Virus record (IMG/VR): IMGVR_UViG_3300045912_000683
Span: 1 to 24,251 of that record
Strand: one strand, 5' to 3'
Length of the DNA stretch: 24,251 nucleotides
Origin: a virus
Positions 3,707-23,385 of the stretch are shown one piece after another (the first letter of the stretch is position 1; each line of letters begins with the position of its first letter). The notes beneath the pieces are model-generated. The model was not told the DNA's origin and did not search any database. It saw only the letters and a program-made list of their open reading frames with translations. Made by a program: the position numbers and the translations under genes.

Positions 3707-4852
3707 ATGAATCGGATATGTTTAAATATGATTGTTCGTAATGAATCTAAAACAATAAAAAGGTGTTTAGATTCTGTTAAACAATATATAGATTATTGGG
3801 TTATATGTGATACTGGGTCAATTGATGATACAATAGATGTGATTAGGGATACTTTAAAAGATATTCCTGGTGAAATTTATAATGACCAATGGGAAAATTT
3901 TGAAACTAATAGGAATTTAGCGCTAGAACGTGCAAAAAAGACTAAATGCGATTGGATTTTTTTAATAGATGCTGACCAAGTCTTAAATTGTTCTTTTGAT
4001 ATTAAAAGTTATTTAAGTTCTTTAAAACCTAATGATAATGGGTATAAAATTTATGTATTACAAAAATTAAACCAATTAGAATATTATAATATTAGATTAT
4101 TCTCAATAAAAGGGAATCAAAATGCAAAATATGTAGGAGTAACTCACGAATATATTGATTTAGATAAAAATAATCAAAAGATTAAGATTGACCTAAATTA
4201 TTTCTATATTTATGATTATGGTGATGGCGGGTCTAAAGAGAATAAATTTAAAAGAGATTTAGAATTATTAAGTAAAGATCTTATTAAAAATCCCAATAAT
4301 CACAGAACAGTCTTTTATTTGGCACAAACATATAGATGTTTACAAATGTATAAAGAATCTTATGATACTTATATGAAAAGGTATCAAATGGGTGGTTGGG
4401 ACGAAGAAGCGTGGTATGCTCACTATTCTGCAGGTTTAAATATGATTAGTCTTAAATATGATGAAAAACAAATAATTGATCATCTTTTAAAATCTTGGAG
4501 TTTTAGACCGTGGAGAAATGAACCAATGGTTATGATTGGATCATTATTAAAGCAATCAAATCCTAAACACGCCGAATATTATTTAAGATTTGCGTTAGAA
4601 TTAAAAAATCCATTAGAAACCGGTGATATACTGTTTGTAGATTCACAATTTTATCATAATTACCCAAGAATGTATTTAGCAGATGCTTATTATAATCAAA
4701 AAAAATACAGAGAAGCAATAAATGAGTATCTAAAAACAGATTTTAAAAATAAGCCAATAAAAACCTATATTGAAAGGAAAATAATTGAAATTCAAAAAAA
4801 ATTAGGGTCATATTCTATAGAACAATTAGAAAAAATTTTAATAGGATCATAA
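3707..4852 (+). CDS. GT2-family glycosyltransferase with C-terminal TPR-like region
   Basis: This 381-residue protein starts with the GT-A fold signature of family 2: CLNMIVRNESKTIKRCLDSV (5-24), then WVICDTGSIDDT (31-42), the nucleotide-sugar-binding region, then WIFLIDADQVLN (83-94) with the metal-binding D88-A-D90. Residues from about 195 onward look like tetratricopeptide helices (VFYLAQTYRCLQMYKESYDTY; YLADAYYNQKKYREAINEYL). This GT2-plus-TPR layout is common in bacteria and giant phages. It transfers a sugar from a nucleotide sugar to an unknown acceptor. Possible acceptors are modified cytosine in phage DNA, a virion protein, or host surface glycan. It starts 1 nt after the broken gene and is 2 nt from a second glycosyltransferase, so the two form a pair. 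Confidence 0.85.
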   Translation: MNRICLNMIVRNESKTIKRCLDSVKQYIDYWVICDTGSIDDTIDVIRDTLKDIPGEIYNDQWENFETNRNLALERAKKTKCDWIFLIDADQVLNCSFDIKSYLSSLKPNDNGYKIYVLQKLNQLEYYNIRLFSIKGNQNAKYVGVTHEYIDLDKNNQKIKIDLNYFYIYDYGDGGSKENKFKRDLELLSKDLIKNPNNHRTVFYLAQTYRCLQMYKESYDTYMKRYQMGGWDEEAWYAHYSAGLNMISLKYDEKQIIDHLLKSWSFRPWRNEPMVMIGSLLKQSNPKHAEYYLRFALELKNPLETGDILFVDSQFYHNYPRMYLADAYYNQKKYREAINEYLKTDFKNKPIKTYIERKIIEIQKKLGSYSIEQLEKILIGS

Positions 4853-7478: not shown

Positions 7479-7982
7479 ATGGATAATTTTAGTAACTATT
7501 GGGTTTGGAACACATTTGATTATCAAGGAGAAGTTTCTGAACTAGAAAAAACTGAAACAGAAGATGGTGTTGACTATTTAGTTTTTAAAGATGGTAAAAG
7601 AGCTTCTACACAACTAATTGGTGATATTATTTCACCAATAGATGATTTTTCAGCAATAGAAATAATAAATTTAAGAAATAAAACTGGAGAATATAGTAAA
7701 AATAACATACCAATAGGGCAATCCGCATCTTTAAAAGTTGAATCACAACAACCACAACATAACTTTTCTATTGCGTCTTCAATTATTAAATCTGTAAAAA
7801 AAGAGGTTAAAAATATAGAAATAATTGTTTCTTTAGAATTGCCTAAATATAGTGGTATATTATTTACTAAAGATAATTTTGATATATTAGATGAAGAGAT
7901 TGAAACTGAAATAAAAAATATGATTTTACTCTATAAAGATGAAATTATTGATAAAATTTATAAAAAATACGTAAGCCAATGA
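7479..7982 (+). CDS. Hypothetical protein, possible virion component
   Basis: This 167-residue acidic protein is not recognised. It opens with an aromatic segment (NYWVWNTFDYQGEV), has a beta-type middle with a Gln/Ser-rich linker (KVESQQPQHNFSIASS), then a strand (NIEIIVSLELPKYSGILF) and a C-terminal amphipathic helix ending KIYKKYVSQ. The late-type motif upstream and its place at the head of a run leading into the baseplate genes suggest late expression. The stop overlaps the Nudix start by 4 nt (ATGA). Confidence 0.55.
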   Translation: MDNFSNYWVWNTFDYQGEVSELEKTETEDGVDYLVFKDGKRASTQLIGDIISPIDDFSAIEIINLRNKTGEYSKNNIPIGQSASLKVESQQPQHNFSIASSIIKSVKKEVKNIEIIVSLELPKYSGILFTKDNFDILDEEIETEIKNMILLYKDEIIDKIYKKYVSQ

Positions 7983-8494
7983 CACCTGTATTTTCAAACA
8001 AATCATTTAATTTGTTTTTAAATGATGATTATCCAAGATTACAATTAAAATATAAATCTGTTCTATTGCTTCCTTATATTTTGGATAGTAACAATAAAAT
8101 AGATAAAATTTTATTATTAAATGAGCCATATCTAACCCGAACATATCAAAATAATATTATTGCTCCTATTACAGGAACAATTGAAAATGGTGAAACATTA
8201 GTTCAAACAATTGTTAGAGAATTATGGGAAGAAGGTGGAATTGAACTTAAACCAGATGATATACCTACTAGAATTGACAATTTAGGATATATTTATACAA
8301 ATAAATGGTCAAATGAAAAATATTATTGTTTTGGTATTAATATCACCGGTTTAGAGCGTTCTAAACCAAAAGGAGACGGGTCTAAAAAGGAAAAAAATAT
8401 TGAAATTAATGAATATAATCCCAAAGACGTTATTGATATAAGAGAATCTTTAGTTTTGTCATCAGTTTATTTATTACTTTATAATAAAATTTAA
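7979..8494 (+). CDS. Nudix hydrolase
   Basis: This 171-residue protein contains a perfect Nudix box, G-x5-E-x7-REL-x-EE-x-G-I, at residues 66-88 (G66, E72, R80-E81-L82, E84-E85, G87-I88), preceded by the expected beta strands (SVLLLPYILD; KILLLNEPYLTR). The Glu residues of the box bind Mg2+ or Mn2+. Such enzymes hydrolyse a nucleoside diphosphate linked to another group; candidates are oxidised dNTPs, ADP-ribose, NAD or capped RNA ends. The substrate cannot be read from the sequence. T4 encodes a Nudix enzyme (NudE), so a phage-encoded one has precedent. It starts by ATGA overlap with the upstream gene and lies 4 nt from the next. Confidence 0.9.
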   Translation: MTPVFSNKSFNLFLNDDYPRLQLKYKSVLLLPYILDSNNKIDKILLLNEPYLTRTYQNNIIAPITGTIENGETLVQTIVRELWEEGGIELKPDDIPTRIDNLGYIYTNKWSNEKYYCFGINITGLERSKPKGDGSKKEKNIEINEYNPKDVIDIRESLVLSSVYLLLYNKI

Positions 8495-9222: not shown

Positions 9223-11301
9223 ATGCCTGTACCTAGACCTCCTAAAAAAGAAATAAGTGCAACGGTTTTGGCAGAAAAGGAAATTTCTGAATCAAATAAT
9301 ACAATAAATCAATCCCAACTAATAAAACAAGGATATGAGGCAATTATTTTAGAAAATTTACCCAATAATAGGATAAAGATAAAAATATTTCAAACTAATC
9401 AAATAGTTGAAGGAACTTCTATTTCTTTAAGGCAAACTTATGTAATATATCCTTCCGAATCTAATCAAATTACATCGCTTTCAACCCAATCTGAAGAAAT
9501 AAATCAAGATACAATACCAAATAAATTTGGTGAATCTTTTGATAAAAGACTTGTATTTGCTCAAGAAGGGGATAAAATTCTAACATCTTTTAATAGTACC
9601 GTAGAAGCGCCTCTAACTGACGGTATGGCTTTTAAGGATACTTATACAAAAGATGGGAAATCAGCAACTAAATTTGTCCCTTGGTCACAATATACTAAAT
9701 CAGATTCACTAAATGAGTTTTTTGGCGTTCCATCACTAATGAATGAAAATGCTTACATAAATCTGTTTGCAGCAGGAGGTAAAAATAATAATAAATACTT
9801 ATTTGATGGTGAAAAACGGTGGTATAATGTAAAAGAAAGAAGCATAGAAAATGGTCAAGGAGTTCAACCATCATCAACACCAACTGTTTCAGAAATAGTA
9901 GAATGGAGTAAACAACCTGAAAATATCAATAAATTTCCCTATAGATTTCAAGATTTTGCATATTGTAAATATTGGAATAAAATTCCAAATAATTATTTAA
10001 TAACCCTAAGGAGATACCCGTATCCTGTTAATGATGCTGTTGATTTGGGTGTTATTGACAATGAAGTAGAACCCACCAGTTTAAGACCAGCGGCAACTTT
10101 ATTGTCTTGGTTGGGTGAATCTACAGGAAACACAATGAATTCTATATTGGGACCATTAGAAACTTCTCTAAAATGGGGTGAAGCAAAAGCACAAGTTTGG
10201 GAAGTTACAACTGATGTAACACCTGCAACTGTGAACAATCCAGCTCCCAAATACGCATTTATTGCGCAAGCATTAACAGGTGGATTGGCAAGTACAAGAC
10301 AAAAACAACCACCTCCTACACCACAGGACCCGTATAACAATGGTCCATACGCAAATAAAATATATGGTCCCGTTAACGTAATTGACAGTGTTAAAAAGAG
10401 AGAACGGGGGATGGAATTTAAACATTCTCTAAATTTAGTATTTGAATGGGTTGCTAGACCTTACGGGGGAATAAATACAAAAGCAGCAGCACTGGATATA
10501 ATTGGTAATATATTGGTATGTTGTTCAGCCACCGCACCATTTTGGGGAGGAATAAACCGTTTTATGCCATCTGCCGCGCAAGGACAAACAGACCCATTTT
10601 TAGGAGGTCCGGCTGGACGTCAAGCATGGATAAACGCAAATCCAGGACAATTTTTGTCTGCAGTTATGAGCCAATTTAATACAATATATGATAATATTAA
10701 AGGTATTTTTGACCAATTGATGGGAAATCCTATTGAAGGATTAAAAAAATTGGCAAATGATGGTGCAAAAGATTTTATGAAATACGCTACAACTGATGGT
10801 AGAACAATAGTTCAAGGAATCCGTTCACTCCTAACGGGTGAACCTGTAGGCGAATGGCATGTTACAATTGGTGCACCACATAACCCAATTATGATGATTG
10901 GTAATCTGATTTGTACAAATTGTAAAATAGAATTAGGGGACGAAATGGGTCCTGATGATTTTCCAATTGAAATAAAAGCAACTATAACATTAGAACACGG
11001 GATGCCGAGAGACCGAGTTGGTATAGAATCAATGTTTAATAAGGGTAGAGGAAGATTTTATTCGCTTCCAAAAGGATATGAAGAATCATTTAGCTCACTA
11101 TCTGAAACAAGAGTTGATAAAGTCACTGGTAAAACTATTATTTCAAGGTTAAAAACAATTGATAAAGCAGTTGTAGGTAGTAAAAGAACTGCATTGTATT
11201 CTCTTGGTTTTGATTCTCCAGAGAATATAGAAGCAGAAAACAAGAAAGCAAGGGAAGCAAACGAAAGGGATAGAGAAAATAATTCTACACCTCAAAAATA
11301 A
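9223..11301 (+). CDS. Large tail/baseplate structural protein
   Basis: This 692-residue protein heads the baseplate cluster. The N-terminal 100 residues are low in complexity and polar; the centre is rich in Pro, Gly and Asn. The most distinctive part is the C-terminal third: WHVTIGAPHNPIMMIGNL (about 545-562), then a strand, then 'GPDDFPIEIKATITLEHGMPRDR' (about 575-597) and FNKGRGRFYSLP. I recall this 'tiG.P.nPimmignLi....PddfP.ei...i.LeHgmpRdr' pattern in virion proteins of other large myophages, but no precise T4 counterpart is certain. By position, a tube-cap or tube-initiator role (T4 gp48/gp54) is one option; a baseplate wedge protein is another. There is no signal peptide. It is 5 nt from the gp53-like gene. 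Confidence 0.65.
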   Translation: MPVPRPPKKEISATVLAEKEISESNNTINQSQLIKQGYEAIILENLPNNRIKIKIFQTNQIVEGTSISLRQTYVIYPSESNQITSLSTQSEEINQDTIPNKFGESFDKRLVFAQEGDKILTSFNSTVEAPLTDGMAFKDTYTKDGKSATKFVPWSQYTKSDSLNEFFGVPSLMNENAYINLFAAGGKNNNKYLFDGEKRWYNVKERSIENGQGVQPSSTPTVSEIVEWSKQPENINKFPYRFQDFAYCKYWNKIPNNYLITLRRYPYPVNDAVDLGVIDNEVEPTSLRPAATLLSWLGESTGNTMNSILGPLETSLKWGEAKAQVWEVTTDVTPATVNNPAPKYAFIAQALTGGLASTRQKQPPPTPQDPYNNGPYANKIYGPVNVIDSVKKRERGMEFKHSLNLVFEWVARPYGGINTKAAALDIIGNILVCCSATAPFWGGINRFMPSAAQGQTDPFLGGPAGRQAWINANPGQFLSAVMSQFNTIYDNIKGIFDQLMGNPIEGLKKLANDGAKDFMKYATTDGRTIVQGIRSLLTGEPVGEWHVTIGAPHNPIMMIGNLICTNCKIELGDEMGPDDFPIEIKATITLEHGMPRDRVGIESMFNKGRGRFYSLPKGYEESFSSLSETRVDKVTGKTIISRLKTIDKAVVGSKRTALYSLGFDSPENIEAENKKAREANERDRENNSTPQK

Positions 11302-11306
11302 TTGGT

Positions 11307-11894
11307 ATGATAACTTTTAGATATACAATAGATAATAAAGAAGAAACACAAAAAAATGGCGAAATCTACATAGATTTTATTAAAAAAGATTTTAGAGATC
11401 GTCCTGTTGAAAAAATACTAAATTTTTACATTGTAAAAGAAGATGATCTTTGCAGACCAGATAAGATTTCTAAAAAAATGTATGGTGATCAAAATAGTCT
11501 TGAAATCTTACTAAAAACAAATGAAATTTCAAACCCATTTTCAATTGAAGAGGGAGAAATTCTTTATCAATTTGACAGGGTTTCAGTTGAAAAGAGTATG
11601 ACAAATAATACTGCAATTGCATATAAAAGGGATATTAGAGAACAGTATATAAAACCCGACAAGGGATCAAAAATAGACCCAAATCTACTATTATTTGAAA
11701 ATCGTGAAGACGCTGCAGAAAAGAATAAAGATCTTAATTTACCACCAAATTTTGCAAAAATAGGTGATTTAGAGGTTAAAATAGAGGGAGGTAAAATCAT
11801 ATTTGGTGATGATGTAACCCGAAATAATCAAGATTGTGACAAACCGTTATCAAAAAGTCAATTACTAGAGAAAATTATAAAAAATAGGATTTAA
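11307..11894 (+). CDS. Baseplate wedge protein, gp53-like, with LysM-like domain
   Basis: This 195-residue protein has a LysM-like segment at about 41-90: YIVKEDDLCRPDKISKKMYG (41-60), then a helix (SLEILLKTN), then EISNPFSIEEGEIL (73-86). This is the 'y.v...D..r.D.is...yGd...w..il..N.i.nPf.i..G..l' pattern of the T4 gp53 family and related wedge proteins, where the fold binds other baseplate subunits rather than peptidoglycan. The C-terminal part is polar, ending in a short basic helix. T4 gp53 has a similar size (about 196 residues). Its neighbours are hub and wedge genes, as expected. I am fairly sure of the domain and reasonably sure of the role. Confidence 0.75.
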   Translation: MITFRYTIDNKEETQKNGEIYIDFIKKDFRDRPVEKILNFYIVKEDDLCRPDKISKKMYGDQNSLEILLKTNEISNPFSIEEGEILYQFDRVSVEKSMTNNTAIAYKRDIREQYIKPDKGSKIDPNLLLFENREDAAEKNKDLNLPPNFAKIGDLEVKIEGGKIIFGDDVTRNNQDCDKPLSKSQLLEKIIKNRI

Positions 11895-11900
11895 TCTATT

Positions 11901-13433
11901 ATGGAACTTGACGAAAAAACAATAATAAAGTCATTATTTGACCCTACTATTCCTATTGATAAAATGGAGATACGTGATGTTTCTACTAAGACAGGTGACG
12001 AATATGGTCCTGATGTTAAAGGAACTGAAACTGGGTGGAAAGTAGAAAATTTATTGGGTCAAGATTATCCTTTTATCATTATTAATGATTACCATTTTGA
12101 TGAACGGGAAATCCTTTATTTTGAAATAAATGAATCAGATTTTTTGCCAACTTGTACTTTTATATTTAGTTTAGTAAAATCAGATGTATTTTCATCAAAA
12201 TCAATGCCAAAAGATGGTGATATTTTATCAGTGTTTATAAGAGCAAAAAATGATGCTTTTAAACCTATTAGAAATGATTATTTAATCCTAACTTGTGATG
12301 CTGGTGAAGGTGGTTTGGAAAATTTAGGTAGGGAAATAACTATTACGGGTGAATTATTTATTCCGCGCATACATGATCAAAAAATTGCTTCAAAAAAGGG
12401 AACTTCTTTTTCAGTGTTAAAAGAAATTGCTAAAGAATTAGGATTAGGATTTGCAACAAATGAATCTGATACAAATGATTTTCAAGAATGGGTATGCCCT
12501 AATGAATCTTATAAACAATGGATTGAAAAAATTGCAAAACATTCTTGGAAGAATACTGAATCATTTTATAAAGTATTTATTGATGTTTATTATCACCTAA
12601 ATTTTGTGAATGTTAACAACCAATTGATTGGACAAGAAATAGTTGCATCACAAATAATTGATATTCCTGGTATTAAAAACTATTGGTTAGACCAAAAAAA
12701 TGATAGTCAAGATAATCAGCAGGTTTCAACCAAAATGTTAACAAATATTGATGGGTTTTCTCCAACCAATATGTTTATTAAAGGATACAAAACAATAAAT
12801 AACAGCTCTTCTATAAATAAAATATGGGGATACAAAAAATTAATACAATTTTTTGATCTTAAATCTAAGAAATATTGGGAATTATTTATAGAACCAATTG
12901 TAACAAAGGGTGCAGAACGTGAAAAAATCCTATTAAAAGGTAGAATAAAGACAAATAAAAGTGATAATAATCCCAAAACGTATGAAGAAGATCTTTGGAA
13001 AACACAAAATATATCTGAATGGAAAGGAATACAATCAAAAAATGTTCATTCCAAATGGTTTTATGCAGAAGAATATAATGCTAGAAACTTAGCAGAATTA
13101 GAAAAAATGTATCTTGAAGTAAGAATAAACAGATGGAACCCAAATATTTTTATGTATGAAAAATTGCCTGTTTTATTTATGAATAGTGAAATAGATTATA
13201 CAAAAAATACATCAGATACCTCTGCAGAAGACGAAGAAATAATTGGAAATGAAACATTTAGATTACCTTCAATAGACCAATTTAATAGTGGATTTTATGT
13301 TGTTTTTGGAAAACGAATATTATATGAAAAAAATAACAGCCAATTTGACCCATATCCTAGTGGAACAAAATATTCAGGTCCAATGTTCTCTGAAGTAATA
13401 ATGTTAACAAGAAGGGAGTGGAATATTCCTTAA
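11901..13433 (+). CDS. Baseplate hub protein, gp27/gpD-like
   Basis: The 510-residue product shows a beta-rich first part (PFIIINDYHFDEREILYFEI, then CTFIFSLVKSD; residues about 55-100) and a second beta domain. Residues about 165-250 then contain SFSVLKEIAKELGLGFATN, a helix with SYKQWIEKIAKHSW, and FYKVFIDVYYHLNFVNVN. This 'lk.ia..lgL....n...t.D...W......y...i..i..h.......ff...id..y.lnfv' series is typical of the hub proteins (T4 gp27, P2 gpD and relatives) that form the ring on which the spike sits. The C-terminal 150 residues are specific. The spike gene lies one gene downstream, consistent with a hub complex. Confidence 0.62.
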   Translation: MELDEKTIIKSLFDPTIPIDKMEIRDVSTKTGDEYGPDVKGTETGWKVENLLGQDYPFIIINDYHFDEREILYFEINESDFLPTCTFIFSLVKSDVFSSKSMPKDGDILSVFIRAKNDAFKPIRNDYLILTCDAGEGGLENLGREITITGELFIPRIHDQKIASKKGTSFSVLKEIAKELGLGFATNESDTNDFQEWVCPNESYKQWIEKIAKHSWKNTESFYKVFIDVYYHLNFVNVNNQLIGQEIVASQIIDIPGIKNYWLDQKNDSQDNQQVSTKMLTNIDGFSPTNMFIKGYKTINNSSSINKIWGYKKLIQFFDLKSKKYWELFIEPIVTKGAEREKILLKGRIKTNKSDNNPKTYEEDLWKTQNISEWKGIQSKNVHSKWFYAEEYNARNLAELEKMYLEVRINRWNPNIFMYEKLPVLFMNSEIDYTKNTSDTSAEDEEIIGNETFRLPSIDQFNSGFYVVFGKRILYEKNNSQFDPYPSGTKYSGPMFSEVIMLTRREWNIP

Positions 13434-13448
13434 TAAAAAAATTATAAA

Positions 13449-15011
13449 TTGAATTACGTTGATACATTAACAAAAAGGTTCTTAACTGCTGGAACAAGAT
13501 TAGGATTAAATGATAAATTTCAAAATTATCAAGATCCTACATATTTAGGATTTACTATAAAAATAGTTAATAGTCTTAATTCTCAATCATTAGACGAGAT
13601 ACCGCACGGACTTTTTTGTATAAGTGGTGAAAATAATGAATATAGTGCAATAAAATACTTAGAATCAAGAGGTGAAAAATTACGTGCTAATTATTTAAGG
13701 GAATTTGAGTCATATTTCAGGAAAATCGTTACAAAAGCGCCTTGGTATTTCACTAAAATAAGCGGTTTAGCAGACCTTTGGAAAATAGATCCTAAACAAA
13801 ACTGGAGAGCAAAAGATAAAAAAATAGTCATTGATACGCTAGAATCTATAGATTTAAGGATAAATTATATGATAGATTTATACAGAAAAGCGTGTTTTGA
13901 CCAAAAATGGATGAGATGGGCTTTACCTGATATAATGAGACAATTTAAAATGGAAATTATAGTTTCTGAGGTTAGATTATTAAAAATTCAAGAGGGAGGA
14001 AATATTCCAGAATTTAATCCTGGCTATATTATAGATGATACTTTTAGTTCAGATACATTAGATTATCCTGGTGCAAGGTCCTTACCATGGTCGGCAGGAA
14101 CATTTATGAAATTTACACTTGAACAATGTGAAATTGACATAACAGAATCAAATCCTACCTTAGAAAGTTTAGGTACAATTGCAGAATCTCCCGTTTCAAA
14201 CAAAATAACTATAAAATTTGGTAATATTGTAGAAAGAAATGTATATGGGTTATTAGGTGGTATAATTGAAGAAACATTAAATTGGCGTGATTATACTAAA
14301 GGAAATTTCTTTTTACCATCTGAAATTGCTTCTTCAAATAGTGAACCTAATATATTTTTAGACAGAAATGTTGTTGAAGAAGGATTTTATGGAACTGATT
14401 ACCTATTAGGTGAAAGGGAACGTAAATTAAGATATATGGAGTTTTTTCCGGAAAATGTATTTGCTGGACAAAATTTTGATAGAGGCAACGGTTTAATAGA
14501 AAATACTTTATCTGATTATGCAGAACCACAAACATTATCTGTTTTAACTGGGAATATAAATCTTTCTTCATTTGATAAATTATCAATTGCTACTCTTGAA
14601 AATGAAATTAAGGAATTAGTCAAATCTGGAGGAATAAAAGATTTAAACAGTCTTAAAACATTATTTACTAATACTGCTAAATCTTTTGAAAACCAATTAA
14701 AAGATTTACCAAAAAATGTACAACAAAATTTTGAAACCTATCTAAATGAATCTTTGGGAACAAATAATATCACATTAAAAGAACCAGCATCAATTGTCAA
14801 CGCATTACAAAAATTTTCTTTAGAAAAAATAGAAAATATAGGTTTAAAAGACGTACAATCATTTTCATTTGGTTCTATCAAATCTTCTGTTGAAAATTTG
14901 GTAAAAAATCAAAAACCAAAATTGGAAAACGCATTAACAAAAGATTTAAAGTTTTTTGCAGGAATAGTTGGTGATAAAAAAGGAAATTTAAAAAAACCAT
15001 CTAAAAAATGA
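13449..15011 (+). CDS. Large conserved phage structural protein, TTG start
   Basis: The 520-residue frame begins at TTG 13449; there is no in-frame ATG near the start and the preceding stop is close. The N-terminal half carries an ordered series I recall from large myophage virion proteins: DPTYLGFTIKIV (28-39), AIKYLESRGEKLRANYLREF (67-86), PWYFTKISGLADLW (98-111), LESIDLRINYMIDLYRKACF, and RWALPDIMRQFKMEI. The centre is beta-rich. The last 150 residues are helical and Lys/Asn-rich, ending GNLKKPSKK. The position between hub and spike genes indicates a baseplate or inner tail component. No T4 equivalent can be named. It overlaps the spike gene by 4 nt (ATGA). Confidence 0.6.
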   Translation: MNYVDTLTKRFLTAGTRLGLNDKFQNYQDPTYLGFTIKIVNSLNSQSLDEIPHGLFCISGENNEYSAIKYLESRGEKLRANYLREFESYFRKIVTKAPWYFTKISGLADLWKIDPKQNWRAKDKKIVIDTLESIDLRINYMIDLYRKACFDQKWMRWALPDIMRQFKMEIIVSEVRLLKIQEGGNIPEFNPGYIIDDTFSSDTLDYPGARSLPWSAGTFMKFTLEQCEIDITESNPTLESLGTIAESPVSNKITIKFGNIVERNVYGLLGGIIEETLNWRDYTKGNFFLPSEIASSNSEPNIFLDRNVVEEGFYGTDYLLGERERKLRYMEFFPENVFAGQNFDRGNGLIENTLSDYAEPQTLSVLTGNINLSSFDKLSIATLENEIKELVKSGGIKDLNSLKTLFTNTAKSFENQLKDLPKNVQQNFETYLNESLGTNNITLKEPASIVNALQKFSLEKIENIGLKDVQSFSFGSIKSSVENLVKNQKPKLENALTKDLKFFAGIVGDKKGNLKKPSKK

Positions 15012-15772
15012 AAGGATTAACTAAAGATGAGATTAAATCTAGGATATTTTATGCAGAAGTGATCGATTCAGATGATCCAGAATATGATGGAAGATGTAAA
15101 GTGAAAGTATTTGGTGTATTAGACCAAATTCCTGATGAATCTTTGCCTTGGGCGCATCCTGGGGGTTTTACAATATTTAGTGGTGATGGCGGTGGTGATA
15201 TATCAATACCAAAAAAAGGTTCAATTGTAAGAGTTAGATTCCCATCTGGTGATATTTATTCGCCTGAATGGTTTTCTATGCCATATCTTAATGAAAAGCT
15301 TAAAAATGAAATAAAAAAGTCATATTTAGGGTCTCAAGTGATATTATATGATGAAATTGAAGATGTAAAAATCTATTATACTCCTTCAATAGGGTTACAA
15401 TTATGGTATGGAGGGAGTAAATTTTTAATAAATCCTGATAAATCTATAACAATTGAACATAATGGTATCGAAAGCATAATTGAATTTTTGGGAACAACTA
15501 TCAATATAACAACACAAAATGAGATAAAATTAGCTGCTCCAAATCTTATAGAGGAAACGGCTACTAATGTGATATTGAATGGTAAAAAATTAACGCAACT
15601 TGGTCCCTCTGGTAATATGAGTGCAGTTGGTTCTGAACCTTTGTTTGCGTTTTTAAAAGCTCTTGCCAGCGCAGTTGACAATAAATGGCCTGCGACTCCT
15701 GGAGTCTTATCTTCATTGGCAGAGGCGGCAGAAGTTGCTTCTACATCAAAAATCGTAAAAGTAACAGTTTAA
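15008..15772 (+). CDS. Baseplate spike/hub OB-fold protein, gp5/gpV-like
   Basis: The first 95 residues form the OB-fold of T4 gp5 and phage spike proteins: FYAEVIDSDDPEYDGRCKVKV (14-34, with the 'v..n.DP...gRv.V' signature), LPWAHP, then ISIPKKGSIVRVRFPSGD (65-82) and SPEWF. The rest repeats short beta strands (SITIEHNGIESIIEFLGTT, IKLAAPNL, NVILNG), typical of a trimeric beta-helix spike. The lysozyme domain present in T4 gp5 is absent. The C-terminus (LFAFLKALASAVDNKWPATPG) is helical and Ala-rich, as in other tailed-phage OB proteins. It would pierce the outer membrane at the baseplate tip. ATGA overlap with the upstream gene; ends directly at the next ATG. Confidence 0.82.
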   Translation: MKGLTKDEIKSRIFYAEVIDSDDPEYDGRCKVKVFGVLDQIPDESLPWAHPGGFTIFSGDGGGDISIPKKGSIVRVRFPSGDIYSPEWFSMPYLNEKLKNEIKKSYLGSQVILYDEIEDVKIYYTPSIGLQLWYGGSKFLINPDKSITIEHNGIESIIEFLGTTINITTQNEIKLAAPNLIEETATNVILNGKKLTQLGPSGNMSAVGSEPLFAFLKALASAVDNKWPATPGVLSSLAEAAEVASTSKIVKVTV

Positions 15773-17977
15773 ATGAATCCAATAGAAGAATTACTTAACA
15801 AATTAAAGATTTGGCGGGAACGTTTTTCAAAATTATATGAAGATCCCCAAAATGATACAATACCCCAATTTCAAGATCAATTAAAAGAATTATTTGGGAT
15901 TGATGGGTTTAAAACTGTAGAACCTGCAATCCAAACTATAAATTTACCAATAAATAGCGATTCTATTCTTAATTTAAGAGATTTAGAACCCAATATTCAA
16001 CCAGTAAAAGATATATTTAAAAATTTAGATAATATAAAACTAAATCCTTGTGAACCGGACCCGTTATTCATCCCAGAAATCCCATTTAGTGTGAAACCAG
16101 CCGCAACAACCAATCAAGAAGAAAAATGGGTAGCAAAATATGTTGATTTAAAAACCACTGATACCGGGATTGTAAATGGAGAATATAATGGCGTAGACAT
16201 TCCATTTGGAGGAAAAATTATATCTAATATTGGTAATGATCTTGAAATAGAATTAGATGGCGAAATAGAAATATTTAGTCAAAAGATTATAGAAGACATT
16301 AAAGTGCAAATAGACAAACGGGTAGATGATATTGAGTCTTATATAAATAATAAGGAATATTATGCAAATAATCTACATACTTATCTTGTTCAAGATTTAT
16401 TTGCAACTTTTTTTAAAAATTCATCAAATATTGCCAAATCGTACATTAATTCAGCAACCCAAATCATAACAAAAAGAAAGGAATTTATTACTAAATTTAA
16501 TCAAAATTCAACAAAATATAAAATATTAACAAATGATAATGACCGAAATAGATTATTAGATGAACAAAGGGATTTATTAAATAAAATAGAAAGTTTAACA
16601 TTAGAATTGGATAGTATAAAATCTTCTAATGGGTTTTATGGGTTTTCAACATATCAATTGCCATCAATAACTATAAAAAATAGTTTGCAAAATGCTTCTT
16701 TTCAACCGTTTTATCCCAAAAATAGTTCATTAAATCCTATACAAATTTTAACTAAACTAAAGAATAAAATAGAACAATTCTCTAATGCTATAATAATAGG
16801 AAATCAACAAATAAATCTTTTAACGCAAACTAATATATTAAATCTTTGCGATCCAACAAAAATAAAAATAAATCCTTTAAATACTATAGAGAATAAATCT
16901 GGCGTATATTTTAGTGAAATTTCATCATTAGAAACACAAATAATAGGGTTTAAACCTAAAGAAGATCAAAAAAATTTAGATATTGAGAAAGTTTGGAGAG
17001 AAAAACTTTTTAATATACACGAAAATTTTAAAAAAGATATAATAGAAATATCTAAAGAATGGACTTTTTATAATTTACAAAAAAATAATAATATTGATGA
17101 CCAAAATAATCCAACAGATTCTATATCTTATTTAGAATTAAAAAGTAACCAATTTATAAATATATGGAAAGACTTTATTACTAAATGGGAAGAAAATCAG
17201 CAAAAAATATCTAATTATGAGGATAATAATGATATTAATATTAAAATTGAAGGATTTAATTCTAAATATTGGAACCAGCCATCAATATTTAAAATGAACA
17301 ATATAAATTATTACATTTTTTCTAGGAAAACTACTCAATTAAATGAACAAGGGGATCCCGTTTATAATGAACAAATAAAATTACCAAATATTAAAGATAT
17401 TAAAATTGAATCTGTTAATTATTGGAAAAAATGGTGCCAAATAGCAACAATTGTTAATCTAAATCCTTTATTTTGGCCGATTGGATTCATTTTACCAGGA
17501 CCAAATGGAATAATAAAAATACCATTTCCTATTATTTGGAGACATATAACAACAATACAAACCCCATTAACTGTATTTGTAATAGGAATAGCTATTTGTG
17601 GCGCTTGCCCGTGCCCTTTCATTTATGCATTTAATCCTGGTTGGGAAATTCCTATATTGGGTATTAATAGGGACCAATCTTATTTTTTAGTAGGTGTCAG
17701 AGGTCCAGTAAAAATAAGTGATAAGATTGAAAACAGGACTTTTTTAGATTTAATTCCTAAAAAAGACAATTTATACAAGATTAGGGAAGAATTAGAAACT
17801 AAAACAATTACTTTTTCTTGGACAATTTTTAATGAAATTAATAAAAAATTACCATTAGAAAAAGAAGATCACCCTCCGTATGAAAAATTAAGTCTTAAAA
17901 ATCTTCAATGGGTGAATTATTTAACTAAATGGTGTAAAGCAGGTAAAAAAACTTATGGTTTTTTTGAAAACCCATAA
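15773..17977 (+). CDS. Large hypothetical tail-associated protein with hydrophobic segment
   Basis: I do not recognise this 734-residue protein. The first 200 residues are mixed. Residues about 180-290 look like long coiled-coil helices (DDIESYINNKEYYANNL; RLLDEQRDLLNKIESLTLEL). A Pro/Gly/Ile-rich hydrophobic block occupies about 555-625 (FWPIGFILPGPNGIIKIPFP, then QTPLTVFVIGIAICGACPCP), followed by an ordinary polar end. The hydrophobic block could insert into the host membrane or pack inside the tail. A baseplate hub or tape-measure-related role (compare T4 gp29, also hub-associated) is possible but not shown. The start immediately follows the spike gene's TAA, implying coupling. It ends the large baseplate run; the next gene has its own late-type motif. 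Confidence 0.6.
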   Translation: MNPIEELLNKLKIWRERFSKLYEDPQNDTIPQFQDQLKELFGIDGFKTVEPAIQTINLPINSDSILNLRDLEPNIQPVKDIFKNLDNIKLNPCEPDPLFIPEIPFSVKPAATTNQEEKWVAKYVDLKTTDTGIVNGEYNGVDIPFGGKIISNIGNDLEIELDGEIEIFSQKIIEDIKVQIDKRVDDIESYINNKEYYANNLHTYLVQDLFATFFKNSSNIAKSYINSATQIITKRKEFITKFNQNSTKYKILTNDNDRNRLLDEQRDLLNKIESLTLELDSIKSSNGFYGFSTYQLPSITIKNSLQNASFQPFYPKNSSLNPIQILTKLKNKIEQFSNAIIIGNQQINLLTQTNILNLCDPTKIKINPLNTIENKSGVYFSEISSLETQIIGFKPKEDQKNLDIEKVWREKLFNIHENFKKDIIEISKEWTFYNLQKNNNIDDQNNPTDSISYLELKSNQFINIWKDFITKWEENQQKISNYEDNNDINIKIEGFNSKYWNQPSIFKMNNINYYIFSRKTTQLNEQGDPVYNEQIKLPNIKDIKIESVNYWKKWCQIATIVNLNPLFWPIGFILPGPNGIIKIPFPIIWRHITTIQTPLTVFVIGIAICGACPCPFIYAFNPGWEIPILGINRDQSYFLVGVRGPVKISDKIENRTFLDLIPKKDNLYKIREELETKTITFSWTIFNEINKKLPLEKEDHPPYEKLSLKNLQWVNYLTKWCKAGKKTYGFFENP

Positions 17978-17999: not shown

Positions 18000-18007
18000 G
18001 ATAAATA
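18000..18007 (+). promoter_or_regulatory. GATAAATA late-promoter-like motif upstream of the S1-domain gene
   Basis: An exact GATAAATA in a 64-nt gap, 34 nt before the ATG at 18042. With the terminator at 19180 it defines a single-gene unit. Confidence 0.5.
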
Positions 18008-18041: not shown

Positions 18042-19181
18042 ATGAAACTACAAATAAACAAAAAACTGTCAAATTCAACTCAAAAAGTTTATTGTCAAGA
18101 GGAGTATGCTGAAGAATTGCTACAAATGTATAATTCTGCATCTATTAGTCAAGAACAACCTAGAGTTCCGTCTGGTGACCTTAAAAAAGGTGATGTATTA
18201 AAAATAATGGATATTTCTCCTGTTAATAATCACGATGTATTAGTATCTACTGAAAAAGGAGATATTATTATAAATATGAACAATGAGAGACAATTTTTAA
18301 AAGTTTTTGGTGTTGATTTGGACCAATTTATGACTTCTATCTTATTAGAAGAATCTAAAGAACTTATAAAAAATTATTCTGTGACAATAATTTCAGTAAA
18401 TCCCCATTTAAGAGGAAGTTTTATGTCAGGATTTGTTAGTGCCACTAAAGAAGAAATGTTAAAGGAAATTAAAAACCCATCTAAGGTGTATAAAGCTAAA
18501 GTTATTTCAAAAAATAATGGAGGATTTATGATAAAACTAAATGGTGGAATAACAGGATTTTTACCTGGTTCTTTAGCAGCAGCAAATATTGTTAAAGACT
18601 TTGATAAAATGGTTGGAAAGGACATTTATGTGATGGTTGATGATTATTTATGGAGTTCTAAAATGTTTGTTTTCTCTGTAAAGAAATATATACAACATGT
18701 TTTACCACAAAAAATTAAAGAATTAGATTTAGACAAAAAATATACTGGAACAATAACAGATACGTCTAAATTTGGTATATTTATTGAATTTTGTGAAATT
18801 TTTACAGGATTGTTACATACTAGTAAAATGTCTCCTGAATTGCTCCAAAAATTTAATAAAAGAGAATTAAAATCTGGACAAGAAATAGATTTTTGGATCC
18901 TATCAAATAATGATAATAAAATCATTTTAACTGATTTAGATGCGACTTTAATAAGGAAACAAAAAGAAGAATTAATTGAAGAATTAGTACAAAAAAATTC
19001 AGTAACTGGTACTATTATTGCTATAAAAGAATGGGGGTTCTTAGCTAAAATAGGAAGAACTCCATTAGAAGATATTATAGGTGTTTGTTATAAGAAAACT
19101 AAAAAAGAAATTGGAAATCAAATAGATTGTAAAGTTAATTGGAATCGGGATGCTGGGAAAATAATCCTAGACTTAGTTTAA
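18042..19181 (+). CDS. Triple S1-domain RNA-binding protein, ribosomal protein S1-like
   Basis: This 379-residue protein has three consecutive S1-type OB folds. They lie at about 148-214 (KVYKAKVISKNNGGFMIKLN, GGITGFLPGS), 232-298 (KKYTGTITDTSKFGIFIEF, FTGLLHTSKM, IILTD) and 320-378 (SVTGTIIAIKEWGFLAKIG, IIGVCYK, IILDLV). A weaker one may occupy 47-80. The second has the classic 'G.v.....fG.fv.f....GLlh.s.m' pattern. S1 domains bind single-stranded RNA, and ribosomal protein S1 recruits mRNA to the ribosome. A phage version made from its own promoter could favour phage mRNAs, which here lack Shine-Dalgarno motifs; an RNA-protection or decay role is the alternative. It forms a single-gene unit with its own motif and terminator. 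Confidence 0.8.
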   Translation: MKLQINKKLSNSTQKVYCQEEYAEELLQMYNSASISQEQPRVPSGDLKKGDVLKIMDISPVNNHDVLVSTEKGDIIINMNNERQFLKVFGVDLDQFMTSILLEESKELIKNYSVTIISVNPHLRGSFMSGFVSATKEEMLKEIKNPSKVYKAKVISKNNGGFMIKLNGGITGFLPGSLAAANIVKDFDKMVGKDIYVMVDDYLWSSKMFVFSVKKYIQHVLPQKIKELDLDKKYTGTITDTSKFGIFIEFCEIFTGLLHTSKMSPELLQKFNKRELKSGQEIDFWILSNNDNKIILTDLDATLIRKQKEELIEELVQKNSVTGTIIAIKEWGFLAKIGRTPLEDIIGVCYKKTKKEIGNQIDCKVNWNRDAGKIILDLV

Positions 19182-19208
19182 AAGAAGGTTTAGACCTTCT
19201 TTTTTTTA
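19180..19208 (+). terminator. Rho-independent terminator after the S1-domain gene
   Basis: A 10-bp stem AAAAGAAGGT (19180-19189) / ACCTTCTTTT (19194-19203) with loop TTAG continues into a T run. It begins within the stop codon of the S1-domain gene and precedes the next late-type motif by 12 nt. Confidence 0.9.
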
Positions 19209-19219
19209 TATTTTTAGTG

Positions 19220-19227
19220 GATAAATA
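19220..19227 (+). promoter_or_regulatory. GATAAATA late-promoter-like motif
   Basis: An exact GATAAATA lies 13 nt before the TTG at 19241 and just after the terminator. It would start the last transcription unit in the window, running through neck, gp25 and gp6 genes. Confidence 0.55.
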
Positions 19228-19240
19228 AAATAAAATAATC

Positions 19241-20587
19241 TTGGAAAACGTATTAAATAATGCATTAGTAGGAATAGAATTTGAATTTTATTCAAAATTA
19301 CCTATAGAAAAAGCAGCAAAATCAATAGGAGAGAAATTAGGAAAAAAAATAATTGTTCCATATTCTGTGACTGATATACTAAATCCAAGACCACTATATC
19401 ATTCACCCATTGAGCCTAAACCTGATATTTTTAAGCTTGAACCAGATTACTCTGGAGGAAAGGATATGCGTGAATTAATAACAGGACCATTACCATATAA
19501 AGAAGCTAGAAATATTATTATAAGAATGTTTGAATGGATAAATGATAATGGATATACAAATAATAGATGTTCTATTCATTTAAATATTTCTGTGAAAGGT
19601 CAAGCACTAACTGTTGATAAAATGAATACACTATATTTTATTTTAAGTTTTGATGAATCAAAAGTATATGATAAATTTCCAAATAGAAAAGACAGTGTAT
19701 ACGCAAGAAGTATTAGTAAAATAGTTCCTAATACTATTGCATTTTATAATAGTATGCAAAAGATGTCAAGAGAAACAATGGAAATCCCATCTGAAAAATA
19801 TTTTGGTGTGAATTTCTTAAAACAAGAAAAAGGTTATCTTGAATATCGATATATTGGAGGCGATAATTATCATAAAAAAAGAAAAGATATTTTAGAATGT
19901 TTAGAATATTTTATAACACATCAAGCATCTGTATTAAATTGGAATGAATCGCAAAAATTATCCCCATTTGTTGAGAAAAAATGGAATGAATATTTAGAAA
20001 GATATAATAAAATAATTAAAGCATATCACAATCCAGAAGATTGTATAGAAATATTTCCAGATCTTAAGATTACAGTAGATTTAAAAAATAATATTCAAAT
20101 ATTAAAAACATATTGGGGACTTATTCAACCACATTTATATCGTCTATTAACTTCTTTTGATATGGATGCTGGGAAGATAAATTATGACACTGATTTAGGA
20201 GCATTTGAAATAAAAAATGCTAATATATCAGGTGGAACTATGAAATATGTTCATTTTTATAATTGTAAATTAGAAGGCGCATTTGAAGGTTGTTTCTTTA
20301 CAAATTGTGAAATAAAGAATTCTAGAATCTTGCAGTGTAATTTTTTAGGTAAAACTAATGTTTGGTCATCTAAAATTCAAGAAACATATCTTAAACCAGG
20401 ACAAATTATGACCGATTGTTTTATAGAAAATAAAAATAGTATTATTGATTGTACTGTAGAAAAAGGCGTGATTAGAGATGGTATTATATCTAAAAATGCA
20501 AAAATATCAAAAGAAACTCTAATTGTATTTGCTAAAAAAGCCGCTGAAACTCTTGGAAACAGCACTAAAAAATCTAAAAAAAACTAA
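19241..20587 (+). CDS. Amidoligase-like protein with C-terminal pentapeptide-type repeats
   Basis: The 448-residue frame starts at TTG 19241; no in-frame ATG exists before the conserved NALVGIEFEFYSK (7-19). That block, then EPDYSGGKDMRELITGPLP (67-85) and a helix followed by NRCSIHLNIS (108-117), follows the amidoligase order 'G.E.E......D.S....ElvT.pl.........C..HvH'. This is a family of COOH-amine ligases related to glutamine synthetase/ATP-grasp ligases. From about 320 to 425 the sequence becomes a pentapeptide-like beta-helix: ISGGTMKYVHFYNCKL, FEGCFFTNCEIKNSRILQCN, and so on. The joint product might form an amide on a peptide or protein, with the repeats giving localisation. The substrate is unknown. 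It leads the unit of neck and baseplate genes, which suggests a role in virion maturation. Confidence 0.68.
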   Translation: MENVLNNALVGIEFEFYSKLPIEKAAKSIGEKLGKKIIVPYSVTDILNPRPLYHSPIEPKPDIFKLEPDYSGGKDMRELITGPLPYKEARNIIIRMFEWINDNGYTNNRCSIHLNISVKGQALTVDKMNTLYFILSFDESKVYDKFPNRKDSVYARSISKIVPNTIAFYNSMQKMSRETMEIPSEKYFGVNFLKQEKGYLEYRYIGGDNYHKKRKDILECLEYFITHQASVLNWNESQKLSPFVEKKWNEYLERYNKIIKAYHNPEDCIEIFPDLKITVDLKNNIQILKTYWGLIQPHLYRLLTSFDMDAGKINYDTDLGAFEIKNANISGGTMKYVHFYNCKLEGAFEGCFFTNCEIKNSRILQCNFLGKTNVWSSKIQETYLKPGQIMTDCFIENKNSIIDCTVEKGVIRDGIISKNAKISKETLIVFAKKAAETLGNSTKKSKKN

Positions 20588-20590
20588 ACA

Positions 20591-21322
20591 ATGACTAGAG
20601 AAGAATTTATTTCAGACATAAGAAATGAAATTACTATTTCTGGTGCAATGCCTTATGATATTCCTGAAAAAGAATATGATAGGATTATTTCCCAAGCAAA
20701 ATCGTGGTTTTACATAAATTATCGTCACGCAGTAGAAGTTCAATACTATGTTATAGAAAAAAAATGGTTTAGTACACCTGAATTTTTAAAAACAAAGAGT
20801 ATATTGCTACCAGATTGTGTTGTTTCAGTTTATGAATGTAAAGAAATGAAAGGTGGTAATAGATTAGGGACTCCTGATAAAGATTTTAGCGCCAATCGTT
20901 TAATTGCAGCAGAATTATTCTTATCACCATTTCAAAGTGATGATTTAATTCTTAGAACTGCACAATATGCTTATTGGGATTTAACTAAAGCATTTATTTT
21001 AGAACATATACAATATGAATTTAATACAAATACTAAAAGAATAAGAATTACTGGTAGACAACCTAAAACAAATGTTTTTTTAGAGACATATATCGCAATA
21101 GAAGAAGAAAAATTAATGGATGATTGGTATTTTAAAAGGTATTGCACTTGTAAAGCAAAAGAATCACTTGCAAGGATTATTAATGCTTTTAAATATCAAT
21201 TACCAGGAGGTATAGAAGTTAATGGTGATTTATGGAAAGAAGAAGCATCAACTGAATTAGAATCAATTTTAACAAAAATTGATGAAGAAAATGTTCCAGA
21301 TTGGTGGTTTATAACAAATTAA
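20591..21322 (+). CDS. Virion neck / head-tail connector-like protein
   Basis: This 243-residue protein starts 3 nt after the amidoligase-like gene. An N-terminal helical region leads to YINYRHAVEVQYYVI (41-55). The C-terminal third reads YFKRYCTCKAKESLARIINA (180-199), then LPGGIEVNGDLWKEE (204-218), then a helix and PDWWF. The order 'y...k.lA.ake.lg.i...f...lPGG..ingd.l..ea..e...l..ei...ppd.f' recurs in neck or tail-completion proteins of T4-like phages, from memory, without a fixed T4 name (gp13/gp14 are candidates). It lies just before gp25 and gp6, so a baseplate-linked virion role is the other reading. No membrane span or signal peptide. Confidence 0.55.
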   Translation: MTREEFISDIRNEITISGAMPYDIPEKEYDRIISQAKSWFYINYRHAVEVQYYVIEKKWFSTPEFLKTKSILLPDCVVSVYECKEMKGGNRLGTPDKDFSANRLIAAELFLSPFQSDDLILRTAQYAYWDLTKAFILEHIQYEFNTNTKRIRITGRQPKTNVFLETYIAIEEEKLMDDWYFKRYCTCKAKESLARIINAFKYQLPGGIEVNGDLWKEEASTELESILTKIDEENVPDWWFITN

Positions 21323-21326
21323 TATT

Positions 21327-21686
21327 ATGATTGACATATATTGCCGAAACCAATCGGATCCTGGTTATGATCCAAACGCATTATTTACAAAAGATAAAAG
21401 GGAAATATTATTGTCAAAGATAAGGATGATCCTTTTTACTAAACCGGGTGAGGTTTTAGGTCACCCAGATTTGGGCGTTGATTTAGAAAAATATGTGTTT
21501 GAAACAGGATTAAATGCAAGTTGGTTAGAAACTAAATTATACAATCAATTTAATAAATATATTCCTGAAATTTCAGATTTTAAATTAGACATTAAAGTAA
21601 CCCTACAAAAAGGAGAATATAGGGATATTTGTTTTATTGATATATTTATTGATAATCAAAAATACTTAGGTGTATTAGTGAAATAA
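21327..21686 (+). CDS. Baseplate wedge protein gp25 (GPW/gp25 family)
   Basis: The 119-residue protein has the gp25 family signature at about 28-59: LLSKIRMILFTKPGEVLGHP (28-47) followed by DLGVDLEKYVFE, and ends in the alternating strands (LDIKVTLQK, CFIDIFIDNQKYLGVLVK) of the gp25 sheet. The Glu in PGE is the conserved residue of the EPR-type core motif region. gp25 joins gp6 and gp53 to form the wedge core in T4 and all contractile injection systems. Normal length. It is followed at 7 nt by the gp6-like gene, the usual order. Confidence 0.9.
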   Translation: MIDIYCRNQSDPGYDPNALFTKDKREILLSKIRMILFTKPGEVLGHPDLGVDLEKYVFETGLNASWLETKLYNQFNKYIPEISDFKLDIKVTLQKGEYRDICFIDIFIDNQKYLGVLVK

Positions 21687-21693
21687 TATTTTA

Positions 21694-23385
21694 ATGCAAG
21701 ATATTTTTAAAAAATCAAGAATAAGATTTGATGAACTTATAAGTGACGCAAAATCTTATTTGTCTTTTAAATATGGTCAAATAGGGGAAATTTTTTCACC
21801 AGCGTCTCCATTTGGACAATTATTAGAAGTGATAATTAGCTTAGGGAGATTAATAATGTTTTATATTGAAGATAGTATAACAGAATTAAACCTATTTACT
21901 GCTAGTAGAAATAGTTCAATTAGGACATTAGCAAGAATTAGTGGTCACAATCCAACAAGATCAATTGCAGCAACCGGAAAAATAAATATTAAATGGAACG
22001 AATCAAATCCCAATGGCGTTAGAGATGGTGTTATTTTAATCCCTAATTGGACTAAAATAGTTAGTGAAAAAAATGGTTTGCCATACGTTATAAATCTTGA
22101 TAACGATTGGGTTAAAGTAAATTTAGATAAGACAATTTATTCATTTAAAATCTATCAAGGTGAAATAGAATCACAACAAGTAACAGGAACTGGTCAGCCT
22201 CTTCAATCATTTAATTTAAGAGCAAAAAGAGGAGCCAAAATTGACCAATATGTTTATAAAGTTTATGTTAATGGGACTGAATGGAAACCTTACGAGTCAA
22301 TATATGATATACCTTATGAAGAGAACGGTTATGTGTTAAAAACGGGTATAAAAGATGGTATAGACCTGTTTTTTGGGAACGGTTTCTTTGGAAAAATACC
22401 TGAATTAGGTTCCATTATTAGAATTGATTATTTGGTTACTAATGGTTCATTTGGTAATATTTATAGTGATGGGGGTGAAACATTTATATGGGAAGAACCA
22501 GGATATAATTTAGATAATGAAGAAGTTGACTTATCAACAATTTTTACTATAAAATCAGAAGGACCAATACTATTTGGTGCAGATGAAGAAGATATTGAAA
22601 TGACAAGATTAATGACGCCATTAGTCTCAAAATCTTTTGTTTTAGCAAATGAAAACAATTATTTTCAATACTTATACAAATATGGTCAATGGTCAGTTAT
22701 AGAGGTTTTTAATACATTTGGTGACGAAAATATTTCTGATGATAATATAATCTATATTTTTTTAGTGCCTGATGTGTCTAAAAGGATATTATCAAACCAA
22801 ACATATTTTAGTATTAATAAGGATTTATTTGGTTTAAGTCCTAAAGAAAAAGAAATGATTTATGATTTAATAGACCAATCTGGACAAAAAATTATTACAA
22901 GTGAAGTAGTAATTTTAGACCCAATAATCACAGAATATGTCCTTAATATAAATATTAGGGCATTTGCCGGGTATCCTAAAGAAAATATTTGGCAAGAAAC
23001 TGTTTCTAGAGTATCACAATATTTTTTAACTAATAAAAGAAGGGATAAGATTCCTAAAAGTGATATTATATCAATTTTAGAAGGGATTAAAGGAATTGAT
23101 TCAGTCAATGCTTGGTTTATATCAAAACAAAATGAAGATAATTTTATCCTAACTGGTAATGATGATAATGTTGGGTTAGATGATTTTGGTGATATAAATA
23201 TTAAAAAGAATGAATTACCTATAATTAGAGGCGGTTGGTACGATAGAAACGGTGTTTTTTATCAAGATGGCGCATTTCGAGATTCACCTTGTAGTATTAA
23301 CATATATTTTTCTAAAACCGATGCAAACGAGAATTCTTTATCAAATTTACAAATAATGAACAAAAAAACTATAAAAAATGTTTAA
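21694..23385 (+). CDS. Baseplate wedge protein gp6-like (baseplate J family)
   Basis: The 563-residue protein directly follows gp25, as in most contractile tails. The N-terminus (SASPFGQLLEVIISLGRLIM-like stretch at about 36-56, then NLFTASRNSSIRTLARISGH at 68-87 and NPTRSIAATG) is the gp6/baseplate J segment that lines up with the wedge core. A beta-rich centre follows (GTEWKPYESIYDIPYEENGY; DGIDLFFGNGFFGKIPELGS), with the typical 'f.....GIdv.FGng.fG..P..G..i.v.Yl.t.G..gN' series. The C-terminal 200 residues contain a LNINIRAF strand and a helical segment (VSRVSQYFLTNKRRDKIPKS), ending basic. gp6 forms the dome ring that dimerises around the hub. It overlaps the next gene by 8 nt. Confident call. 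Confidence 0.88.
   Translation: MQDIFKKSRIRFDELISDAKSYLSFKYGQIGEIFSPASPFGQLLEVIISLGRLIMFYIEDSITELNLFTASRNSSIRTLARISGHNPTRSIAATGKINIKWNESNPNGVRDGVILIPNWTKIVSEKNGLPYVINLDNDWVKVNLDKTIYSFKIYQGEIESQQVTGTGQPLQSFNLRAKRGAKIDQYVYKVYVNGTEWKPYESIYDIPYEENGYVLKTGIKDGIDLFFGNGFFGKIPELGSIIRIDYLVTNGSFGNIYSDGGETFIWEEPGYNLDNEEVDLSTIFTIKSEGPILFGADEEDIEMTRLMTPLVSKSFVLANENNYFQYLYKYGQWSVIEVFNTFGDENISDDNIIYIFLVPDVSKRILSNQTYFSINKDLFGLSPKEKEMIYDLIDQSGQKIITSEVVILDPIITEYVLNINIRAFAGYPKENIWQETVSRVSQYFLTNKRRDKIPKSDIISILEGIKGIDSVNAWFISKQNEDNFILTGNDDNVGLDDFGDINIKKNELPIIRGGWYDRNGVFYQDGAFRDSPCSINIYFSKTDANENSLSNLQIMNKKTIKNV

Follow-up and report, generated by a model that had tools for sequence, protein, structure and literature searches.

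The gene at positions 18042-19181 of the window, by which we mean the whole of a 24,251-base virus record that is itself a fragment, encodes a homologue of ribosomal protein bS1. Relatives of this gene are widespread among viruses, and in those closest to the window it occupies a conserved site within a baseplate/neck cassette, next to an amidoligase-like gene. We think it probable that the product serves as a phage substitute for bS1, which would join the 30S subunits of the host and help the translation of phage mRNAs lacking Shine-Dalgarno (SD) sites.

A four-fold homologue of bS1

The reading frame starts at an ATG (18042), a position fixed by the in-frame TAA directly 5' of it, and ends with a TAA at 19179-19181. 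Its 379-residue product matches the Pfam S1 family (E 1.9e-14), and its top PDB sequence matches with phmmer are bS1 proteins of ribosomes (E 3.3e-10). NCBIfam models, including those of bS1, match with E down to 6.5e-19, all far beneath their equivalog cut-offs. The curated rpsA cut-off is also missed by the window's protein (TIGR00717, 51.2 bits vs 577, and likewise for other bS1 models); none of eight other records rises above it, in a genome search that passes only 2 of 14 control genomes. The AlphaFold2 model, built with 50 homologues (L074, L118 and the loci of annotated records were omitted, and L042 was begun at a later ATG), has an N-terminal helix and four OB folds (pLDDT 89.7, pTM 0.62). 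The initial annotation had proposed a phage-encoded S1-type protein, which the Pfam, phmmer, profile and fold matches bear out, and had counted three S1 domains, which given the model should read four.

18042..19181, + strand: phage bS1-like gene, 379 aa, four OB folds (sequence, Pfam, AlphaFold2, Foldseek)
18105..18146, + strand: N-terminal helix, residues 22-35 (YAEELLQMY stretch), proposed docking helix (AlphaFold2, alignments)
18195..18419, + strand: OB1, residues 52-126, diverged (AlphaFold2, profile and structure alignment)
18489..18677, + strand: OB2, residues 150-212, equivalent to bS1 domain 2 (GGF...FLPGSL; AlphaFold2, profile alignment)
18738..18932, + strand: OB3, residues 233-297, nearest to bS1 domains 4 and 5 (AlphaFold2, profile alignment)
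19002..19175, + strand: OB4, residues 321-378, nearest to bS1 domains 5 and 6 (AlphaFold2, profile alignment)

The solved structures that best match the model with Foldseek are bS1 in 30S complexes (9gut_B, 3.6e-17, followed by 9guv, 9gux and 6h4n), and OB1 and OB2 together superpose on bS1 residues 3-174 of the 30S pre-initiation complex 9guq_B (Z 12.8, rmsd 4.4, 166 residues). Viral entries of the same fold already bear the names 'S1 motif domain-containing protein' (Virus NIOZ-UU157) or '30S ribosomal protein S1' (uncultured phages); a PHROGs search with the S1 protein gave no useful lead.

Profile-profile comparisons with hhalign allow most folds to be assigned. The phage OB2 scores 84 against domain 2 of bS1 and at most 37 against the other five domains, OB3 is closest to domains 4 and 5 (70 and 69) and OB4 to domains 5 and 6 (68 and 67), with OB1 too diverged for assignment to any one domain. 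When the profile of the phage family is set against full-length bS1 of the Bacteroidota type, the alignment runs from the N-terminal motif on (probability 99.8, E 6.6e-28; the 54 of 88 bS1 proteins of 620 residues or shorter were used). According to passages of D'Urso 2023 (PMC10123108), F120 and F130 of E. coli bS1 make up an mRNA pocket in OB2. Among the 58 non-redundant proteins of our 86 phage S1, the first position holds F or Y, and the second F, in all 58. Lysine 43 of E. coli, which enters the zinc pocket of uS2, is matched by a lysine in 3 of these 58 proteins vs 40 of 40 motif-bearing Bacteroidota-type bS1, and by G73 in the window's protein, with the alignment unsure in the diverged OB1. 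This apparent loss is the chief result against a simple docking through OB1. In the N-terminal helix (residues 22-35), L26 and Y30 align with F5 and F9, aromatic residues of the uS2-docking helix of E. coli bS1, and L and Y are common there in Bacteroidota-type bS1.

Relatives, host and the N-terminal motif

A profile scan of IMG/VR matched at least 599 stretches, of which at least 581 encode a relative of the S1 protein; the best 80 of these loci, on contigs of up to 482 kb, were kept. Among named records, good matches were found in 15 Lak and six LR records (462-735 kb). Short records labelled as phage with weak matches (H22-H26, H116, H117 and H120-H127) look bacterial and were excluded. 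In the phage collection, the gp6-like protein of the window is nearest to that of LR756500 (40.6%), then to those of the 15 Lak records of Prevotella (34%) and of the 634-735-kb phages (30-33%), followed by phages of Flavobacterium, Tenacibaculum and Chryseobacterium and phage PAU (22-27%), with enterobacterial phages after these. The order of these relatives makes a host in the Bacteroidota likely. PAU is recorded as a phage of Sphingomonas, but a reference title in PMC10537231 calls its host a Sphingobacterium, of the Bacteroidetes. An S1 gene common to all the Bacteroidota relatives was considered and rejected: no match was found in the cultured gp6-matching phages (Tenacibaculum, Chryseobacterium, Flavobacterium and PAU).

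In a tree of 24 phage S1, hand-picked from the 58 non-redundant ones, with 12 Bacteroidota-type and seven other bS1, the phage proteins form one clade (100/100) apart from all others, in which the window's protein and that of L002 are sisters. With a phage clade that is both deep and separate, the tree names no donor.

Many phage relatives resemble Bacteroidota-type bS1 at the N-terminus, where both have an F[DN]W motif and, after it, a stretch of acidic and aromatic character. It lies within the first 75 residues in 44 of the 77 phage S1 with an intact 5' end (called from the best 80 of at least 581 loci) vs 1 of 833 further ORFs on these contigs, a difference whose Fisher p of 1e-52 is overstated because the rows are related; none of the 80 phage S1 has it beyond residue 90. 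Our set of Bacteroidota-type bS1 comprised the 88 of 118 loci (L122-L239) that gave whole ORFs of more than 450 residues, and 80 of the 118 records were placed by title, all in the Bacteroidota but one in the Chlorobiota. The motif is present in 85 of the 88 (the exceptions are L204, L207 and L228) and in none of seven other bS1 (E. coli, Pseudomonas, Paracoccus, Neochlamydia, Limosilactobacillus, Acetoanaerobium and Nonomuraea). Its place, N-terminal to the uS2-binding helix, leads us to read it as a putative docking tag, and a tag common to many phage relatives and to the hosts' own bS1 suggests that the virus swaps its S1 into host ribosomes. The motif is missing from the window's protein, from that of its closest relative L002 and from the six LR proteins; the S1 of Lak-B5 carries it and L004-L008 lack it. 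We found no report of it in bS1 or in phage S1 in the literature searched, largely without subscription papers, and in the bS1 of Bacteroidota it may act as a docking element that has escaped description. A protein very closely related to a Flavobacterium bS1 is contained in PDB entry 9zcd.

These comparisons bear on a different reading, that of an RNA-binding protein acting off the ribosome, which would coat, unfold or protect phage mRNA, or act as a cofactor of a phage RNA-processing enzyme, without entering ribosomes. OB3 and OB4 do resemble RNA-binding domains of bS1, OB1 has diverged and K43 is lost, lone S1 domains are present in many RNA enzymes and regulators, and host bS1 is itself described, in passages of PMC13157829, as a cofactor of the RegB protein of T4. 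Yet a generic RNA chaperone is not expected to keep a bS1-type OB2 with its pocket residues, nor a host-type F[DN]W in 44 of 77 relatives. We regard this role as rather unlikely, though it is the strongest competitor of the bS1 substitute.

Gene neighbourhood, transcription signals and leaders

The S1 gene of the window lies between a tail gene and a run of amidoligase-like, adaptor, gp25 and gp6 genes, and L002, LR756500 and most of the 80 S1 loci have homologues arranged in this order.

9223..17977, + strand: tail/baseplate genes, six ORFs including gp53-like and gp5-like, upstream of S1
18000..18007, + strand: GATAAATA, promoter-like motif before S1 (placement analysis)
19180..19203, + strand: intrinsic-terminator-like hairpin with T run (hairpin search)
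19220..19227, + strand: GATAAATA before the next gene, the amidoligase (placement analysis)
19241..20587, + strand: amidoligase-like gene, glutamine-synthetase fold with C-terminal beta-helix, constant neighbour of S1
20591..23385, + strand: head-tail adaptor-like, gp25-like and gp6-like genes, part of the cassette downstream of S1

The amidoligase-like protein has a glutamine-synthetase fold by Foldseek (7e-5), and 6 of 29 relatives match Amidoligase_2. Among the best 80 of at least 581 S1 loci, it is encoded by the next called gene in 59 of the 75 cases (of 77 intact S1 ORFs) with a called gene downstream. Conversely, when loci were fetched by the amidoligase and not by S1, 80 of 80 contained S1, mostly directly upstream and inside the baseplate/neck cassette. 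These were the best 80 of 525 amidoligase relatives, 61 of them with at least 4 kb of upstream DNA; as both sets are best scorers, nearest to the window and with contigs in common, the 80 of 80 is valid for this neighbourhood and not for all 525. In the phage collection, amidoligase-like matches were confined to six records of huge phages, and each of these has S1 too. The association is looser elsewhere: the four 634-735-kb phages have both genes, but apart, and tblastn with the amidoligase matched no Lak record. The idea that S1 requires the amidoligase was rejected, since two Lak genomes have S1 without an amidoligase match. The pair itself was not encountered in the literature searched, largely without subscription papers.

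Further upstream, the window has thymidylate kinase-like, thymidylate synthase-like, glycosyltransferase family 2 and NUDIX genes (1088-2537, 3707-4852 and 7979-8494, before the tail cassette). A SET-domain protein (167-589, Pfam SET 1.1e-9) has a 30% relative near the S1 of the 735-kb LR756501 (L005).

The S1 gene appears to form its own transcription unit within this cassette, in line with the single-gene unit proposed initially: GATAAATA precedes both S1 and the next gene, and the terminator-like hairpin separates them. The window has six copies of GATAAATA on the + strand and none on the - strand. Five of the six are wholly intergenic, and for five of the six a called gene begins 16-42 nt downstream, a placement that is hard to obtain by chance (binomial p 8e-6; intergenic DNA makes up 1,653 of 24,251 bases). 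The exact 8-mer departs from chance in its placement only. Its number is not raised (6 on the + strand vs 7.6 for GATA[AT]ATA in mononucleotide shuffles), and over-representation of the late-type motif as a loose consensus was rejected (RATAAATAAAA with one mismatch, 32 found and 28 expected). Within 110 nt before S1, [GA]ATA[AT]ATA occurs in 65 of the 75 relatives that, among the best 80 loci, have enough upstream DNA, whereas the count is 234 of 821 for other ORFs and 79 of 1,600 for random stretches; no such motif was seen in the inspected upstream stretches of L002 and LR756500. GATAAATA resembles the late promoter of T4, TATAAATA. In the window, S1 is followed by a perfect hairpin with a T run, as it is in 9 of 79 relatives vs 8 of 800 random stretches.

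The site of the gene might suggest that the protein is a part of the virion, delivered with the DNA or used in the assembly of the baseplate or neck, and in the window's clade its position between the tail genes and the adaptor, gp25 and gp6 genes is indeed fixed. However, S1 lies far from gp6 in Lak phages and in the 634-735-kb phages, 65 of 75 relatives give it a promoter-like motif of its own, and the protein has the fold and the conserved residues of bS1. We therefore deem a structural role improbable and return to the substitution of bS1, for which the leaders of the phage genes are relevant.

The initial description of the window as SD-poor with A-rich leaders agrees with our counts. SD matches of at least 4 nt precede 3 of its 29 genes (10%; shuffled 3.4%) and matches of at least 5 nt none of the 29; in the 80 loci, those of at least 4 nt reach 8.5% (shuffled 6.2%, n=821). 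Adenine makes up 59% of positions -20 to -11 in the window, 55% in the 80 phage loci and 40% in Bacteroidota loci, against backgrounds of 41%, 35% and 29%, respectively, and in the window it reaches 72% at -12 and 79% at -13. The further suggestion that a phage S1 recruiting such leaders would bias host ribosomes towards late phage mRNA found no support, and A-rich leaders as a mark of late genes were rejected: at -20 to -11 the fraction of A is 0.588 in the 17 non-structural genes and 0.583 in the 12 structural ones (0.647 and 0.771 at -14 to -11). Because the two classes do not differ at -20 to -11 and Bacteroidota genes are also A-enriched there, late mRNA would not stand out by a high A content as such.

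In the window's lineage, the S1 gene may be expressed late, as its place among structural genes suggests. Recoded TAG codons mark the later genes in phages such as Lak. The S1 of Lak-B5 (L003, 19899-21008) has no in-frame TAG in 369 codons, and TAG amounts to 4.7 per 1,000 codons in its 40-kb surroundings vs 19.6 around gp6. We read the Lak region as early-type from its codons, which hints at early expression, and together with the distance to gp6 this speaks against a universally late role.

Possible action on the ribosome and known systems

In the reading that we favour, a phage bS1 shortened to four OB folds would sit on 30S subunits during infection of a Bacteroidota host and compete with, or replace, the loosely bound host bS1. 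Docking would involve the N-terminal helix together with OB1 and OB2, and the F[DN]W tag as well in the many relatives that carry it. OB3 and OB4 would keep the leaders of phage mRNAs, A-rich and devoid of SD sites, close to the exit of the mRNA and so allow good initiation on them. Passages of Baez 2019 (PMC6847099) propose that bS1 binds A-rich leaders and place its domain 4 near mRNA positions -12 to -15, which fits the 72-79% of A at -12/-13 in the window. Against the substitution of bS1 count the loss of K43, the lack of F[DN]W in the window, scores below the equivalog cut-offs, A-rich leaders beyond the late genes and the early-type region of Lak phages.

A broader version is conceivable, and we put it forward tentatively. 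Huge phages of Bacteroidota might run a ribosome-reprogramming module, in which a short bS1, tagged in mimicry of the bS1 of the host phylum, and an amidoligase fixed beside it that perhaps modifies a ribosomal or phage partner, would yield hybrid ribosomes tuned to SD-less phage mRNA; in the window's lineage the tag would have disappeared or given way to the conserved helix. The protein could also be a decoy that displaces host bS1 to shut down host translation rather than aid phage mRNA, as a truncated and diverged bS1 with a host-like N-terminal tag in many relatives might do, but it keeps the RNA-contact residues of OB2 and bS1-like OB3 and OB4, and in the window's clade its gene sits among structural genes, when translation is needed, which makes this very improbable.

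As a substitute for bS1, the phage protein would be a reduced one. Complete bS1 has six OB folds in about 590 residues. The resemblance to Bacteroidota bS1 lies in homology along the length, the OB2 signature, the N-terminal helix and, in 44 of 77 relatives, F[DN]W; the phage protein differs by its four folds in 379 residues, its diverged OB1, the loss of K43 and its separate clade. The question addressed is how Bacteroidota ribosomes choose start sites without SD pairing, and a compact four-fold bS1 with natural variants that have or lack F[DN]W offers a ready test of docking vs leader-reading parts.

The LR745206 and LR756500-LR756504 records, whose S1 is homologous to that of the window, presumably stem from Al-Shayeb 2020. 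The general idea is already published: passages of that study (PMC7162821) describe S1-domain proteins in a few huge-phage genomes, where a true rpS1 was hard to confirm, and the absence of SD sites with a role in initiation. Both cases concern S1 domains in SD-poor genomes; ours differs by the at least 581 IMG/VR stretches, the assignment fold by fold, F[DN]W and the fixed site by the amidoligase, and we did not find the motif, the cassette or the breadth in print. The bS1 of cyanophage PhiMa05, a jumbo phage, is said in passages of PMC13157829 to come, together with five other ribosomal proteins, from Vampirovibrio-like bacteria; we set it beside the window's S1 by description only. Another parallel is bS21, which passages of Chen 2022 (PMC9723584) place among the structural genes of Bacteroidetes phages and interpret as a late-stage takeover of ribosomes. 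It is likewise a ribosomal protein for initiation encoded among structural genes in such phages, but a different protein, absent from the window fragment. It did not emerge as a constant partner of S1, being found in 4 of 26 records, all above 630 kb (many of the others are fragments). In LR745206 and LR756502 (W02 and W05), phages of more than 630 kb, the bS21 genes lie about 19-25 kb from S1.
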